In this document: positions 29,862-36,340 of the stretch, in pieces
Position numbering within the stretch: position 1 is the stretch's first letter
Layout: each line of letters opens with the position of its first letter
Translations under genes and position numbers: made by a program
The notes under the pieces: generated by a model
Databases searched by the model: none
What the model saw: the letters and a program-made list of their open reading frames with translations, nothing else
What the model was told of the DNA's origin: nothing
Assembly: GCA_016183065.1 (NCBI GenBank)
Contig: JACPFF010000019.1
Span: 105,351-169,350 of the forward strand
Length of the DNA stretch: 64,000 nucleotides
Source of the DNA: Deltaproteobacteria bacterium
Lineage (GTDB): Bacteria > UBA10199 > GCA-002796325 > JACPFF01
Reading direction: 5' to 3'

Positions 29862-31592
29862 TTAATCCTTCATCCGCTCGCCTTGCTGCTCCGTGCGGAA
29901 GATCCAGCTCACAAATTTGCTGATCAATATCGGATGGTGCCCCTCGGCATCGACTTCCCAATAGCGATCCCCCTGGGCATTGTAGGAGCTCGTGTCGCGG
30001 GGATCGCTGCGCTGCAATTGCTCCAAAATACGTTGCGCGCGCGCCATCCATCGGGTCCAGTTCGTGGCGCGCAGGTCGACCCATCCTTCCGCGGCCCACT
30101 CCTCCAGATCGGCCTCTTCGGCGGACTGGGCGCCGCTTAAATGGCTCTTGGACGGGATGTGGATGGTCTGGCCGCGCAACAATCGCTGGCCATCGGGCAT
30201 GAGAATGGGAATGCCGATGGAGATGATCCGCGATCGCAGGGTCACGTCGGTCGTGATGAGCGCCGATGTCTTTTCACTGATCTGCTCCGGGGTCGCCTGC
30301 AGCATCTCTTCGCAATTGGGGAAGACGCGCGAGAGGAGATAGGCCTCATAGAGGTACTTCGCCACCGTGGGACCACCGGTCTCAAAGGTAATGCTCTCGA
30401 TGCCGGTTTCCTCCTCGAGTTGCCGGAGTTGGGCGAGGGCTTTCCCCCGCATATACCCGGCACGATAGGTCGGTCCCATGGTCGAGATGTCGAGGGCGGC
30501 AATAATATCATGACCGGTATTGCGGCCCTGGATCTCCCAGACCGCGACCTGGGCAATCTCTTCGGGGGTGATGAATTCCATTTGCGAGTGATCGGTCACC
30601 AGCGCGAATTCATGGTGCGACCACATGCCGTTTTCCCCCGTGTCGATGTAGGGGGCCTCGAGCGGCCGGGGCTGACCGGTATCATCGGTGAGATAGCGCG
30701 GTGTGAGGGAACCGGCACGGGCCATGGCGCCCTTGCGCACCGGGAGTGCGGCCTCCGGCGGACAGTCTTCGAGATAGAACGGTTTGCCGCGATAGACGAT
30801 CGGCCCGAACCCGATTTTTTTCCATCCGATATAGGCCGTGGGTTTCAACTCCTTGACAATGGGACCGCCCGGCGTTCGGGCAAGGAGAAAGAGGAGGAGC
30901 GAGTGTGCACCGGCAATCGCGGCCTTGGACAAGAGTAATTGCGAATCGCGGCCTTCACTGTGCGTGTAGGGGATGGTGATGCCGAGCCCGCCGGTGCCGC
31001 TGGTGCCAATCTTCAGATAAAAATCGGTCTTCGCCTCGAGCATCGATTGCCACAAGATCTGGATGTGACGAATGAGTTGGGGAATACCGAGGGCCAGACA
31101 GAGACGTTCGCTCATCCCCTCCAGGAGATCAAAGGATTGTTGCTCATCCACTGCCGAGCGGAGCTGTTGTGCCGCGCTGTAGACATCGGAATAGGCGAGC
31201 GCGGTCGCCGAATTGACACAATCGAGAATGATCTCGGGCCGGTACTCCATGCACCACTGATAGAGGGTCGCCTGTGTGAGAATGCTCTCACGCATCGGGT
31301 GCAAGAGGAGGTCGGTCAATCGGGCCCGGTGTACCGGGTCGGCGAGCCGTTCCGTGCGCGGGAGATCCTTCAGGTCGAGCGGGGCAAAGATGTCGCCGCC
31401 GAGCGGGGTCAATCGGCAGGCGGTGTCGGGGAATTGTGCGTGCAATTGGGCAATGCTGTCGATCGCATCCTCTTCAACCAGCGAGGCGATCATCAGTTCG
31501 GCCACCTCTTCGTCGATGAGATGGCGGCAGATGGCCTGGCCGACGAGCCCCGCACCCCCAAGGACCATCACGCGTTTTCCGTGCAGTTCCAC
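29862..31592 (-). CDS. large Rossmann-fold (SDR-like) protein, 576 aa
   Basis: The start is GTG 31592, with AAGGAGGT six bases upstream. Residues ~7-18, VMVLGGAGLVGQA, are an NAD(P)-binding GxGxxG-type motif of extended short-chain dehydrogenases. The protein is nearly twice the normal SDR length; the C-terminal ~300 residues are not recognised and contain conserved-looking blocks (GHDIIAALDISTMGPTYRAG, ETGGPTVAKYLYEAY). Role and substrate unknown. bolA follows four bases later. Confidence 0.72.
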   Translation of the reverse strand: MELHGKRVMVLGGAGLVGQAICRHLIDEEVAELMIASLVEEDAIDSIAQLHAQFPDTACRLTPLGGDIFAPLDLKDLPRTERLADPVHRARLTDLLLHPMRESILTQATLYQWCMEYRPEIILDCVNSATALAYSDVYSAAQQLRSAVDEQQSFDLLEGMSERLCLALGIPQLIRHIQILWQSMLEAKTDFYLKIGTSGTGGLGITIPYTHSEGRDSQLLLSKAAIAGAHSLLLFLLARTPGGPIVKELKPTAYIGWKKIGFGPIVYRGKPFYLEDCPPEAALPVRKGAMARAGSLTPRYLTDDTGQPRPLEAPYIDTGENGMWSHHEFALVTDHSQMEFITPEEIAQVAVWEIQGRNTGHDIIAALDISTMGPTYRAGYMRGKALAQLRQLEEETGIESITFETGGPTVAKYLYEAYLLSRVFPNCEEMLQATPEQISEKTSALITTDVTLRSRIISIGIPILMPDGQRLLRGQTIHIPSKSHLSGAQSAEEADLEEWAAEGWVDLRATNWTRWMARAQRILEQLQRSDPRDTSSYNAQGDRYWEVDAEGHHPILISKFVSWIFRTEQQGERMKD

Positions 31593-31631
31593 AGCGACCT
31601 CCTTGATGTCTCTTCGACGTCGAAGCAGGAC

Positions 31632-32735
31632 CTACTGTTTCTTGATGCGGGCGACAAGGAGGATTCGCAGCGCGAGCGGGAGGAATGCTGCGAGGAGGAA
31701 GAGGCTGAAGGTCTGCCATGCCCACGTCGCATGGCGCTGGATGAGTAGGGTGCAGCCTTCCTTATTGAGCGGTGGCGAAAATGGCATGGTGGGGGACACC
31801 TGCGAGACGCTTGGCGCAGGTTTCGTGGGGTCTTTGACTGCGCTCTTTGCGCACGTCTTGGTGAGGAAGTTGGGATATTCGGTTTGCGGATCGCAACAGA
31901 TCGTCATGCCGAGCTGGATCATCTGCGCCGTGCAACTGTAAGGATATGTTGCGCCTGGTGGGGGAGCGGGGTCAGGGGGGTCCTCTTTGCCCGTTCCATC
32001 AGTCGATGCCGCACAGGTGTTGTGGGCCACGCTCCCCGTGGTCGTGACCGTATTGGCATCGTGCACGCAGGTCAAGGTGTCCGGGAGGTAATAGATCCCG
32101 TAATTCCCATTGCTGCTGATGGTATTGTCTTTAATCGTATTCCCATTCTGCTTCAATGTCATGCCGGTGCTGACGGAACTGCTCGTAATGGTGTTTGCGG
32201 TGATGGAGTTTCCCGTGCCATCGATATAGATCCCGTGTCCCAACGTCGTTGAAATCGTGTTTTTCAGAATGATGTTATTGCTGCTCATGATGCAGAGGCC
32301 ATTCATCGATTTCTTCTGGACCTCGAGGGCGATGCCATCAATTTTATGGGCATTAGACTTGAGTGCCAGGGAGCAAAATGAGGAGCCCATCAATGCCATT
32401 CCGGTCGGGAAAATAATCCGGGCATTCTCGATTCCTTGCAGATGAATGCCCCAGTCCGCGGTGAGGACGATGAAGGATGGATAGATAATCGTCCCCTTGA
32501 TGGTGATGAGTGACTTCCCCGAGTCATCGAGACAAGTCGCCGTGTTGGCGGCATATTCCGTTTCGGGATAGTTGGGCGTGCTATGGGCCCACGTGAGGGC
32601 CTTTTGCAGTTGCTCGGCGGTGGTGACCACGCATTTTGGCACTGCGCTGCTGTTGCGACTGAGGAGCATGCACCCCGTACACAAGAGCATGATCATGAGC
32701 GTATCAAAACGTCGGTGCCACATCATCGACCTCAT
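31632..32735 (-). CDS. secreted beta-helix protein with Cys C-terminal tail
   Basis: 367 aa. ATG 32735 is chosen because it overlaps the stop of the 24-codon ORF (ATGA at 32732-32735); a second ATG pair lies four codons later. A signal peptide (MIMLLCTGCMLL) is followed by a right-handed beta-helix region with NosD-like repeats (SNNIILKNTISTTLGHGIYI, NSITANTITSSS, NTIKDNTISSNGNYGIYYL). Then comes a Cys module (CTAQMIQLGMTICCDPQTE), a linker and a tail: Glu-Gly-Cys328, hydrophobic helix, basic ARIKKQ. This matches tripartite C-terminal sorting signals. It is the third of three neighbouring genes with the same module and tail. Confidence 0.78.
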   Translation of the reverse strand: MRSMMWHRRFDTLMIMLLCTGCMLLSRNSSAVPKCVVTTAEQLQKALTWAHSTPNYPETEYAANTATCLDDSGKSLITIKGTIIYPSFIVLTADWGIHLQGIENARIIFPTGMALMGSSFCSLALKSNAHKIDGIALEVQKKSMNGLCIMSSNNIILKNTISTTLGHGIYIDGTGNSITANTITSSSVSTGMTLKQNGNTIKDNTISSNGNYGIYYLPDTLTCVHDANTVTTTGSVAHNTCAASTDGTGKEDPPDPAPPPGATYPYSCTAQMIQLGMTICCDPQTEYPNFLTKTCAKSAVKDPTKPAPSVSQVSPTMPFSPPLNKEGCTLLIQRHATWAWQTFSLFLLAAFLPLALRILLVARIKKQ

Positions 32736-32806
32736 TTGAAACGGTTCGGGATAAGCAGGTTCATCCCAACGGCCCAAATCGCAATGGCAATGAAGAACCA
32801 TGTCAT
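32732..32806 (-). CDS. 24-aa hydrophobic microprotein overlapped on both sides
   Basis: A 75-bp frame between two larger genes. Its ATG overlaps the upstream stop (ATGA at 32803-32806) and its TGA overlaps the downstream ATG (ATGA at 32732-32735). The peptide is a single hydrophobic helix, starting MTWFFIAIAIWAVG and ending in a short basic tail NRFK. Double overlap and strong hydrophobicity argue for a translated gene, or at least a translational relay. It may act in the membrane with the two neighbouring sorted proteins. No homologue recognised. Confidence 0.6.
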   Translation of the reverse strand: MTWFFIAIAIWAVGMNLLIPNRFK

Positions 32807-33696
32807 ACTGGGGGTCCCTTTGTCTGCCGTTGCCATGTCCAGAACGCTCCGAGCAACAATCCCATGCCGACAAGGAGGAGCCCGATGGCGATATGATCGG
32901 TCTGACCCTGTCCGGAGGTCTTGATCAGGAGACACCCGCCACCGCCAGCGCCATAGAGATCGCCGGTGTATTCAAGTGGTGCCACCTGTTCGAATGGCAC
33001 AGGCGTGCCGTCGTCGGGTGTTGGCGCATCAGGGAATGGCACGCAGGTTTCGGTTGCGGGATCGGCCATTTCGGTCGCCGGATCACAACATTGTGTCATC
33101 CCCAACAGGAGGTCCTCTTCCGTGCAATCGTAGGGCCCGACTACGGGGTCCTCTCCCTCTTCCGGGACGAAGAACGGGATAATCGGCACAACGGATACGG
33201 GGAGTGTCACCGCGTTTGCCAAGGAGACTTCGTATCCTGGCGGTATCCCTTTGCCGTCTTGCCACACTTTGGCGATCCACACGGTGGAAGAAGTCGTGAG
33301 TTGAGGATTGGCATCAAGGGTAAAGAGACAGGTGAACGCGTACTCTTGTGGCACAGCCTTGGCGGTCACGTCACATTGACTCGATTGTTCCCCATTTTGC
33401 GAGAGGAAGAGTGGTTGTGCATAGGAGATCTTGCCGTTTTGGGTCGGCGGGGGCGCATTTTTTTCCCTGTACAATGCCAGGAGTGGCTGTGTCACACTTT
33501 GGCTCTTGAACGTCCCTTTGATGGTAAACGTGGTAACGTCCGCCTCCACGCCTTTGGTAATGACGACATCGCTGTATTCCGAGGGGGGTTGGAGCGTGAG
33601 CGCGCGTGCGCCCGGAAGAGAGACAAGGCCCAAGATCGTCCAGACGGCGATCAGGGTCACGTAGCGGACTGAGAGAGCAAAGTGATCGTTCAACAT
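32803..33696 (-). CDS. secreted protein with CCDP module and Cys C-terminal tail
   Basis: 297 aa from ATG 33696, preceded by GGAGGA. The signal peptide ends near LPGARA. Residues ~35-190 are strand-rich and unrecognised. Then PYDCTEEDLLLGMTQCCDP shares the Cys module of the 31632 gene. The C-terminus has Gly-Gly-Gly-Gly-Cys255, a ~20-residue hydrophobic helix and the basic WQRQTK, a tripartite sorting signal. Driven by a consensus sigma-54 promoter 24-39 bp upstream. The stop overlaps the microprotein start. Confidence 0.78.
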   Translation of the reverse strand: MLNDHFALSVRYVTLIAVWTILGLVSLPGARALTLQPPSEYSDVVITKGVEADVTTFTIKGTFKSQSVTQPLLALYREKNAPPPTQNGKISYAQPLFLSQNGEQSSQCDVTAKAVPQEYAFTCLFTLDANPQLTTSSTVWIAKVWQDGKGIPPGYEVSLANAVTLPVSVVPIIPFFVPEEGEDPVVGPYDCTEEDLLLGMTQCCDPATEMADPATETCVPFPDAPTPDDGTPVPFEQVAPLEYTGDLYGAGGGGCLLIKTSGQGQTDHIAIGLLLVGMGLLLGAFWTWQRQTKGPPV

Positions 33697-33719
33697 AACA
33701 ATTCCTCCGCTCATTGTAC

Positions 33720-33735
33720 AGCAAACCGCGTGCCA
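33720..33735 (-). promoter_or_regulatory. sigma-54 promoter of the 32803-33696 gene
   Basis: The minus strand reads TGGCACGCGGTTTGCT, a perfect -24/-12 match. Transcript start near 33709, leader ~13 nt including GGAGGA. Directly upstream is TTGTCGTATAAT, similar to TTGTCGCATAAC ahead of the 35052 promoter. ATTTCA lies at 33760-33765. Confidence 0.82.
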
Positions 33736-33868
33736 ATTATACGACAAAATAGGGCCGCTATTTCAGTGGGTTATGCGTCGTTTTTTGAGTACTCCTTAAA
33801 AGTGAGGCATTTGCTCCCCAGTCGATCCGTCCACAGTATCCACGTCAATCAAAACCAGGGAACAATGG

Positions 33869-34021
33869 AGACGGAGCAAACGGGATGTTGCCACTGTTGG
33901 AGGGGCTCGCGTCGCCCCCTCCAGCGGCAAAGCCGCTGGAGCCTCCCCCTCAGCGCCGCGGTGCGGCTGGGCCGTGGGGCCCCGGACTGACGTCCGGGGC
34001 CCCACTCCATTTGCTCCGTCT
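33869..34021. repeat. GC-rich interspersed repeat (copy B), multi-hairpin
   Basis: Outer arms AGACGGAGCAAA (33869-33880) and TTTGCTCCGTCT (34010-34021) are perfect inverted copies. Inside are CTCCAGCGGC/GCCGCTGGAG, GCCGC/GCGGC and GGGGCCCCGGAC/GTCCGGGGCCCC hairpins. The inner part matches copy C at 60239. It fills the 352-bp gap between two sorted-protein genes. No coding potential. Confidence 0.7.
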
Positions 34022-34048
34022 GACCGTATCTGACTGTCACTCACATCG

Positions 34049-34984
34049 TTATTTGTCGTCGTGTCCCGATTCTCGGCGGAGACGGATGAGGCCGAAGAGG
34101 CTCAAGGCCGCGATGCCGGAGAGGAGGAGGTAGAAGCCGTCGGAGTGTTGAAGTTCGCTCTGGAGCGAGCAACCGCCGCCGCCACCTTTGGCTGGCGTGC
34201 CAGCGGGGTCACCATCACCAGGCTCGTCACCTCCGTCTTCGGTCGCCGCAGGCGGATCGACTATCAGCGTGCTCGGGTCGTAGCACCCGTTGGTGGCATC
34301 GTACGCCTGACCCGCCGGGCAGCAGAGGGCCGGGTTGAATGCCACGATGGTCGGGTCACAGGTGCTGGCCGGATCAGGAGTCTCCTCGGGATCTGGCTTG
34401 GGATCAGGATCCGCAATCGGATCCGGTGTTGCCGCCTTCACCGCAGTCGCCTTCTCAATCGCCGTGGCAAAGAGCTCTAGTGGGCAATCGTTCAGTTTTG
34501 AACAGCCACCGCTACTCTTGTACCAATCACACTGCACCTTTGCTTTCTCGGCGGTAGGAAGATCACTGGCACTCTTGAGAGGAAGGCCACCCATCGAATA
34601 GCGGCAAGCTGTTTGGCCATCATGGAGGTCAAAGTTGATCGCGGTCTTTCCATCGTTATTAGCGTCGAGATTCTTCGGTGTGCAGGCATAGATATGTTGT
34701 GTGTTGGATCCGACATCCTGGCAGGTCCACCAACTTGGATTTTCCAGCGTCCCCTGCATGCCAGCGATGGTGACGCCGAACAGATATTTGACTGCATTCG
34801 TATTTTCCACATCCGTATATTTATAGAGCGTTACCAGTGGCATTGTTATTGTAAGCTGTGTATCTGTACATTTTTGCAGTGACGAAGTCGCTGTTGCATT
34901 CCCAGCGAAGATGAGTGCGCATGATGCCGCCATGATCACTATGCCACTCTTCCCCATCAGGCACTTCTGAATTTTCCGTAACAT
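34049..34984 (-). CDS. secreted Cys-rich protein with GGGGGC C-terminal tail
   Basis: 311 aa from ATG 34984 (GGAGGAG upstream). Signal peptide to about residue 31 (CALIFAGNATA). Residues ~35-185 are Cys-rich and probably disulfide-bonded; ~190-215 is an Asp/Pro linker; CDPTIVAFNPALCCPAGQ is a variant of the Cys module in the two neighbours. The tail is Gly5-Cys272-Ser-Leu, then a hydrophobic helix and RLRRE. Separate sigma-54 promoter at 35052. Probably a surface protein processed at the Cys. Confidence 0.78.
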   Translation of the reverse strand: MLRKIQKCLMGKSGIVIMAASCALIFAGNATATSSLQKCTDTQLTITMPLVTLYKYTDVENTNAVKYLFGVTIAGMQGTLENPSWWTCQDVGSNTQHIYACTPKNLDANNDGKTAINFDLHDGQTACRYSMGGLPLKSASDLPTAEKAKVQCDWYKSSGGCSKLNDCPLELFATAIEKATAVKAATPDPIADPDPKPDPEETPDPASTCDPTIVAFNPALCCPAGQAYDATNGCYDPSTLIVDPPAATEDGGDEPGDGDPAGTPAKGGGGGCSLQSELQHSDGFYLLLSGIAALSLFGLIRLRRESGHDDK

Positions 34985-35051
34985 ATCAGCTCCTCCATTC
35001 TGCGGTTGTTCGCCGAAAACGTCCGATTCATTGCAGACGGAGTCACGATAC

Positions 35052-35067
35052 AGCAAGAGGAATGCCA
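35052..35067 (-). promoter_or_regulatory. sigma-54 promoter of the 34049-34984 gene
   Basis: The minus strand reads TGGCATTCCTCTTGCT, with correct -24/-12 spacing. Transcript start near 35041, giving a ~57-nt leader. TTGTCGCATAAC lies just upstream; TGAAAT on the plus strand at 35117-35122 is a candidate activator site. The remainder of 34985-35179 is AT-rich and carries no gene. Confidence 0.7.
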
Positions 35068-35179
35068 TGTTATGCGACAATTATTGTTAAATAATATTGA
35101 TTAGTTATCTATCTGCTGAAATTTCTTCCCGATGATTGTGAGGTCTCAGCACCCCAACGAAGTCGGATAAGTGGGGATT

Positions 35180-36340
35180 TTATGCGCTCTCAAAACAGCC
35201 GATCTGCCGGGCGATGACGAGGCGCTGGACCTCGTTGGTCCCCTCGCCGATTTCCAGGAGCTTTGCGTCCCGATAGAACCTGGCGACCGGGTACTCCTCC
35301 ATGCATCCGTAGCCGCCATGGAGCTGCACGGCGTGGTCGGCCACCAGTTTCATGGTCTGGGCGCAAAAGAGTTTGGCCATGGCGGCCTCCTTGCCAAAGG
35401 GATGCCCGGCGTCTTTCAACCAGCAGGCCTTGTAGAGCAAGGCGCGCGCGGCCTCGATCTGCATGGCGCAATCGGCCAACTTGAAGGCATTGCCTTGAAA
35501 ACTGGCGACCGATTGGCCGAAGGCCTTCCGCGATTTGGCATACGCCAGTGCGGCATCATATGCGCCCTGCGCGCCACCGAGACCCATGGCCGCGATCCCC
35601 AACCGCCCGCTGTCGAGCGTCTGGAGCATGTATTTGTAGCCCATGCCACGGGTCCCGAGCAAGTGGTCTTCCGGGACACGGACGTTGTCGAAGAAGAGCT
35701 CTGCCGTATTTGACGCGCGCCAGAGCATTTTCCGTTTCATCGTCCGTGTTGTGAACCCCGGTGTCCCTTGTGGCACGAGGAGACAGCTCATCTCCTTTCG
35801 GCCCGACGCGTCAGTCCCGGTCACACACTGCACTGTGGAGCCAGCCGTGATGGTTGTTGCGGCATTGGTGATGAAGATCTTTGCCCCATTGATCGTCCAT
35901 TGGCCGTCTCGCAGCGAGGCGGTGGTTCTCGAATTCCCCGCGTCTGAACCGGCGTCCGGTTCGGTCAGCCCGAATCCCCAGAGCCGCCTGCCGCTGCAGA
36001 GGTCGGGAAGATAGCACTCCTTTTGGGCCTCAGAGCCGAATCGGGCAATGGGACCCACGCCGAGGGTATTGTGTGCCGCGACCGTGGCCGCATGCGAGGC
36101 ATGGACTCGCGCGAGTTCCTCGACGATGAGGAGATACGACAGCGTGTCGAGACCAAGCCCGCCGTATTGCTGCGGCGCCATCACGCCCATCAACCCGAGT
36201 TCCCCCATTTTTTGGGTCAACTCGGTGGAAAACCGTTCTTCCCGTTCGAGCGCCTCTGCGGCTGGAGCGAGTTCTCCTTCGGCAAAGTCGCGCACCATCT
36301 GACGGAGTTGTTGCTGCTCTGGGGTCAGTGCGCAGTCCAT
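35180..36340 (-). CDS. acyl-CoA dehydrogenase
   Basis: 386 aa, standard family length. Flavoenzyme that introduces a 2,3-double bond into acyl-CoA. Motifs: GFGLTEPDAGSDAGNSRTTA (FAD region), KIFITNA, SRKAFGQSVASFQ, and GEGTNEVQRLVIARQI, where the Glu of GEGT aligns with the catalytic base of short/medium-chain and butyryl-CoA types. Single gene between the sorted proteins and the arabinose cassette. Closest to short-chain types by eye; the electron acceptor ETF is not in the window. Confidence 0.9.
   Translation of the reverse strand: MDCALTPEQQQLRQMVRDFAEGELAPAAEALEREERFSTELTQKMGELGLMGVMAPQQYGGLGLDTLSYLLIVEELARVHASHAATVAAHNTLGVGPIARFGSEAQKECYLPDLCSGRRLWGFGLTEPDAGSDAGNSRTTASLRDGQWTINGAKIFITNAATTITAGSTVQCVTGTDASGRKEMSCLLVPQGTPGFTTRTMKRKMLWRASNTAELFFDNVRVPEDHLLGTRGMGYKYMLQTLDSGRLGIAAMGLGGAQGAYDAALAYAKSRKAFGQSVASFQGNAFKLADCAMQIEAARALLYKACWLKDAGHPFGKEAAMAKLFCAQTMKLVADHAVQLHGGYGCMEEYPVARFYRDAKLLEIGEGTNEVQRLVIARQIGCFESA

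Follow-up and report, generated by a model that had tools for sequence, protein, structure and literature searches.

KdpF and CydX are small proteins that serve larger complexes; like AcrZ, TorE and NapE, they are single-helix small membrane proteins. Termination-reinitiation occurs at ATGA overlaps (PMC6728339, PMC10666635); its range is about -8 to +10 nt, and beyond 20-40 nt little of it remains (PMC10666635). Sorting tails of the MYXO-CTERM type are processed by CPBP proteases, that is, by myxosortase (PMC11980579). Here we compare these systems with a 24-codon frame, the micro-ORF, that is found in a window of 64,000 nucleotides (the whole stretch of DNA that was analysed). On balance, we lean towards the reading that this is a lineage-restricted frame, possibly translated by termination-reinitiation and perhaps carrying ribosomes onwards, whose peptide is functionally incidental.

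The micro-ORF lies on the minus strand at 32806-32732 (24 codons and a TGA, ATG...TGA) and encodes the peptide MTWFFIAIAIWAVGMNLLIPNRFK, exactly as located and described in the sequence-only reading. As also claimed there, the peptide would form one hydrophobic membrane helix with a basic end (..PNRFK). With a single transmembrane helix in less than 50 aa it has the make-up of a small membrane protein, and it resembles KdpF, CydX, AcrZ, TorE and NapE in its position between co-directional genes. On the other hand, unlike these proteins, it has no family match (a search of Pfam and NCBIfam with the peptide gave none), and no conserved copy beside a partner gene was seen in the 46 genomes compared, where P2 too is without a full-length homologue. 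A search of plasmid records with the peptide gave no match.

The neighbouring genes, all on the minus strand, encode exported proteins. Upstream lies P2 (33696-32803, stop TGA at 32805-32803), a protein of 297 aa with an N-terminal signal peptide, for which ATG 33696 with its GGAGG site is the best start. Downstream is P3 (32735-31632), a NosD-like beta-helix protein with Pfam scores of 39.5 bits for NosD and 31.4 bits for Beta_helix. P1 (34049..34986) is situated upstream, about 350 nt before P2, and an acyl-CoA dehydrogenase assigned by Pfam (35180..36340) provides a syntenic marker common to a relative from the same family. The claim that both flanking proteins bear C-terminal sorting tails proved correct: P2 ends in GGGGC, a helix and a basic tail, and P3 in GC, a helix and a basic tail. 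P1 carries GGGGGC in the same arrangement, and the aligned tails of the three proteins consist of G-C, helix and basic end. Among the reference genome contigs, neither P2 nor the 576-aa gene downstream has a relative. Furthermore, P2 and P3 have in common a segment that contains a CC motif (GMTQCCDPATE and GMTICCDPQTE, 40% identity over 57 aa, window 31632-33696), which has so far been seen only in this genome. Between P1 and P2, at 33880-34020 of the window, there are GC-rich inverted repeats, CCAGCGGCAAAGCCGCTGG and GGGGCCCCGGACTGACGTCCGGGGCCCC, perhaps a terminator or a repeat element.

At its upstream end, the ATG of the micro-ORF overlaps the P2 stop by four bases (ATGA); at the downstream end, the stop of the micro-ORF (32734-32732) overlaps the in-frame P3 ATG at 32735, again by four bases. 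While both ATGA tetramers are present, the claim of an exact four-base overlap at both ends could be upheld only in part, since P3 probably starts elsewhere. Of the three candidate starts, ATG 32735 inside the second ATGA is without Shine-Dalgarno pairing (+0.1 kcal/mol), and ATG 32726 reaches -5.0 kcal/mol at a very short spacing. ATG 32723 is preceded by GAGGT at good spacing, and its -6.3 kcal/mol equals the median for genes here. Most likely, P3 starts at ATG 32723 rather than at 32735, which would leave an 8-nt gap after the micro-ORF and no overlap. The second "overlap" is then more likely a stop codon within a ribosome-binding site: in ATGAGGTCGATG (32724..32735, minus strand), directly before ATG 32723, the stop of the micro-ORF falls inside the GAGGT of P3.

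Chance levels were taken from the window joined to the rest of its own contig (169,350 bases), on which 140 genes were called with a simple script based on codon usage instead of a full gene finder. Among 104 same-strand pairs we observed one double ATGA bridge, compared with 0.77 expected per contig from dinucleotide shuffling of the regions after stops, so the double overlap alone is not significant. When the length and the two tetramers are kept constant, the shuffled gap stays open in 49% of cases. Note that about one exact double overlap is expected per 170 kb, and that by itself it is no evidence. On the contig, 30 called genes end in ATGA, and for 20 of them another called gene starts at the overlapping ATG, which means that this genome uses such restarts. 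Among the remaining ten ends, only the short frame behind P2 terminates on a start codon of the next gene. Potentially, the micro-ORF could be an untranslated chance frame, with P3 starting independently at ATG 32723 from its GAGGT and P2 merely ending in ATGA. We consider this very unlikely: the double overlap is at chance level, ATG 32723 has a binding site and a TGA is natural inside ATGAGG, but of the genes that end in ATGA here, two thirds lead into a real restart, and the hydrophobicity of the frame is unusual.

The mean hydropathy over 18 residues of the peptide is 2.02, which places it in the top 0.3%. The contig has 675 micro-ORFs with lengths of 18-40 codons, of which 0.3% are equally hydrophobic (none of the 50 intergenic ones is), and the share is again 0.3% among the open shuffles in which the ATGA tetramers and the length were fixed. 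The coding score of the micro-ORF is mid-range among real coding windows and above that of about 99% of off-frame windows. Both values exceed those of a usual random frame and thus speak against our preferred reading. However, in the synonymous-codon component an equally high score is reached by 23% of the micro-ORFs overall and by 12% of the intergenic ones. Since synonymous codon choice is unremarkable, the coding signal mostly restates the hydrophobic amino acids, and codon choice is no independent support for the micro-ORF as coding. We also considered whether the gap extends P3 at its N-terminus (the P3 frame is open to 32873), but rejected this, as that frame has a coding score of -0.9 over the gap, compared with +5.3 for the micro-frame, and its residues look non-coding.

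The distance between P2 and P3 is 67-79 nt and is too long for direct coupling. With the micro-frame, both junctions come within the reinitiation range (start-stop distances of -4 nt between P2 and the micro-ORF, 32806/32803, and of -4, +5 or +8 nt between the micro-ORF and P3), so that a translation relay is possible. In such a relay, ribosomes ending P2 would restart at the overlapping ATG 32806, aided by the upstream AAAGGGA. This is a moderate ribosome-binding site of the AAGG type, and its -5.0 kcal/mol comes close to the median for real ATGA pairs on the contig (-5.6). The ribosomes would then translate the 24 codons and halt within the ribosome-binding site of P3, and a stop inside that site could deliver them to P3 across the 67-nt gap. 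We infer that the micro-ORF may be translated and may carry ribosomes in this way; its product, a short N-out/C-in helix, is itself most likely incidental. The relay that had been proposed is therefore possible, as the junction distances show, but P3 can do without it, as an ordinary ribosome-binding site precedes its start. The -4 overlap of P2 and the micro-ORF, the spacing of the second junction and the wide use of ATGA restarts in this genome are all as in known termination-reinitiation pairs. What differs is that, at the second junction, the first of the two cistrons has just 24 codons, and that P3 has its own binding site.

Two further explanations of the gap were rejected. One is an RNA element: the fold of its RNA is nothing unusual (z 0.01), and in 31400-35300 there is neither a match in Rfam nor a terminator-like site on the minus strand. 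The other is a programmed frameshift. At the C-run (GGA CCC CCA GTA TGA), a +1 shift would join P2 to the frame of P3, but only the run itself speaks for it.

We compared the locus across 46 genomes of the phylum, own genome included. No homologue of the micro-ORF peptide was found in the 45 other genomes; a weak match in one of them (G045, L021, E 0.49) is most likely a random agreement of hydrophobic letters. P2 itself has no full-length homologue in these genomes. In G001, the only same-family genome besides the own one, the acyl-CoA dehydrogenase gene is present too (L011:2281-3519), and behind it comes a single frame of 620 aa (L011:3671-5533). This frame begins with a module ending in GGC, a helix and RGRR, which is followed by a hydrophobic segment resembling a signal peptide, a beta-helix with 33-37% identity to that of P3, and a second tail of GGGGC and a helix. 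An internal tail before a signal-like segment could possibly mean that a common precursor gives rise to two surface proteins, or that the two have been fused. At the equivalent junction, the sorting-tail module is fused directly to the beta-helix module and there is no micro-frame, but the relative is distant and no homology of its first module to P2 could be detected. The refuting condition named in the sequence-only reading, relatives that lack the frame or carry stops or indels in it while keeping both neighbours, is thus answered only in part. The distance of G001, together with the binding site of P3 that makes a relay unnecessary, weakens our preferred reading.

The sorting tails are a wider feature of the phylum. 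Both a tail profile and an inspection of C-termini showed tails of GGCSL, a helix and RRK on many exported proteins. These tails score below the cut-offs of the MYXO-CTERM and JDVT-CTERM models: P2 and P3 have no match to either, and P1 reaches 9.4 bits against a cut-off of 27 for JDVT-CTERM. A CPBP protease of the own genome, with EExxxR and HxxxN present, scores 113 bits against the curated myxosortase-core cut-off of 100, and an Lgt-family gene lies directly before it (L062:366-1827; G000:C15, about 78.2 kb). The myxosortase-core model is above its cut-off in 37 of the 46 genomes, compared with none of 14 controls. The Lgt-protease neighbourhood is kept in all three other loci that we read (L066, L067 and L068), where we assigned Lgt by eye, judging by the likeness to the own-genome protein; in L068 the two genes overlap by four bases. 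Together with the tails, this has the look of a system for lipidation and sorting that extends across the phylum. By analogy with the Myxococcus xanthus model (PMC11980579), P1-P3 would be lipidated and cleaved by Lgt and the protease. They share with MYXO-CTERM proteins the Cys motif, the helix and the basic end, in a genome with a myxosortase-family protease beside an Lgt-family enzyme. In contrast, the micro-ORF is no such substrate: it has no exported domain, and its peptide is free of Cys, including the invariant one ahead of the helix.

Could the peptide instead be a true membrane microprotein with a single helix, produced in concert with P2 and P3 and acting as a partner in their export or processing? 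The strong helix, the gene-like coding score, the usable start site and the tight packing all agree with this, and the myxosortase system of the genome could handle the tails of the neighbours. On the other hand, there is no homologue in the phylum, the frame is absent in the same-family relative, synonymous codon choice is uninformative, and in about 20 other genes of the phylum with sorting tails, no hydrophobic micro-frame overlaps the stop. We regard a microprotein of this type as unlikely. The more specific idea that a 24-aa helix peptide assists the membrane processing of two myxosortase-type substrates in one lineage of the phylum seems highly improbable to us, and the suggestion of a helper in membrane processing was not borne out by the comparison. 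In G014 (L055:114-3596) there are three tandem sorting-tail genes, as in P1-P2-P3; behind those that were scanned there is no hydrophobic micro-frame.

The order of helix, basic end and stop is also that of a sorting tail, and three tail genes follow each other at the locus. Hence, the micro-ORF could be a remnant that has lost its outer domain: either the final 24 codons of what was once a sorting-tail gene, or a copy of the P2 tail that has decayed. At the protein level there is a likeness to the P2 tail (IAIxxxxVGMxLL), with a shuffle p of about 0.001-0.0025 before correction for six comparisons. However, the Cys motif is gone and there is no DNA similarity to the tails of P2, P1 or P3 (codon-shuffle p of 0.88, 0.99 and 0.08, respectively), and we find a remnant quite unlikely. 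For the same lack of DNA similarity, we rejected the idea that the frame arose when the P2 tail was duplicated in tandem.

If the micro-ORF is translated, as our preferred reading allows, a tiny frame would convert an uncoupled gap to a coupled junction, which would be a cheap route to new microproteins. The surroundings matter more than the micro-ORF, for they place myxosortase-Lgt surface sorting in a small phylum outside the one in which it was described.
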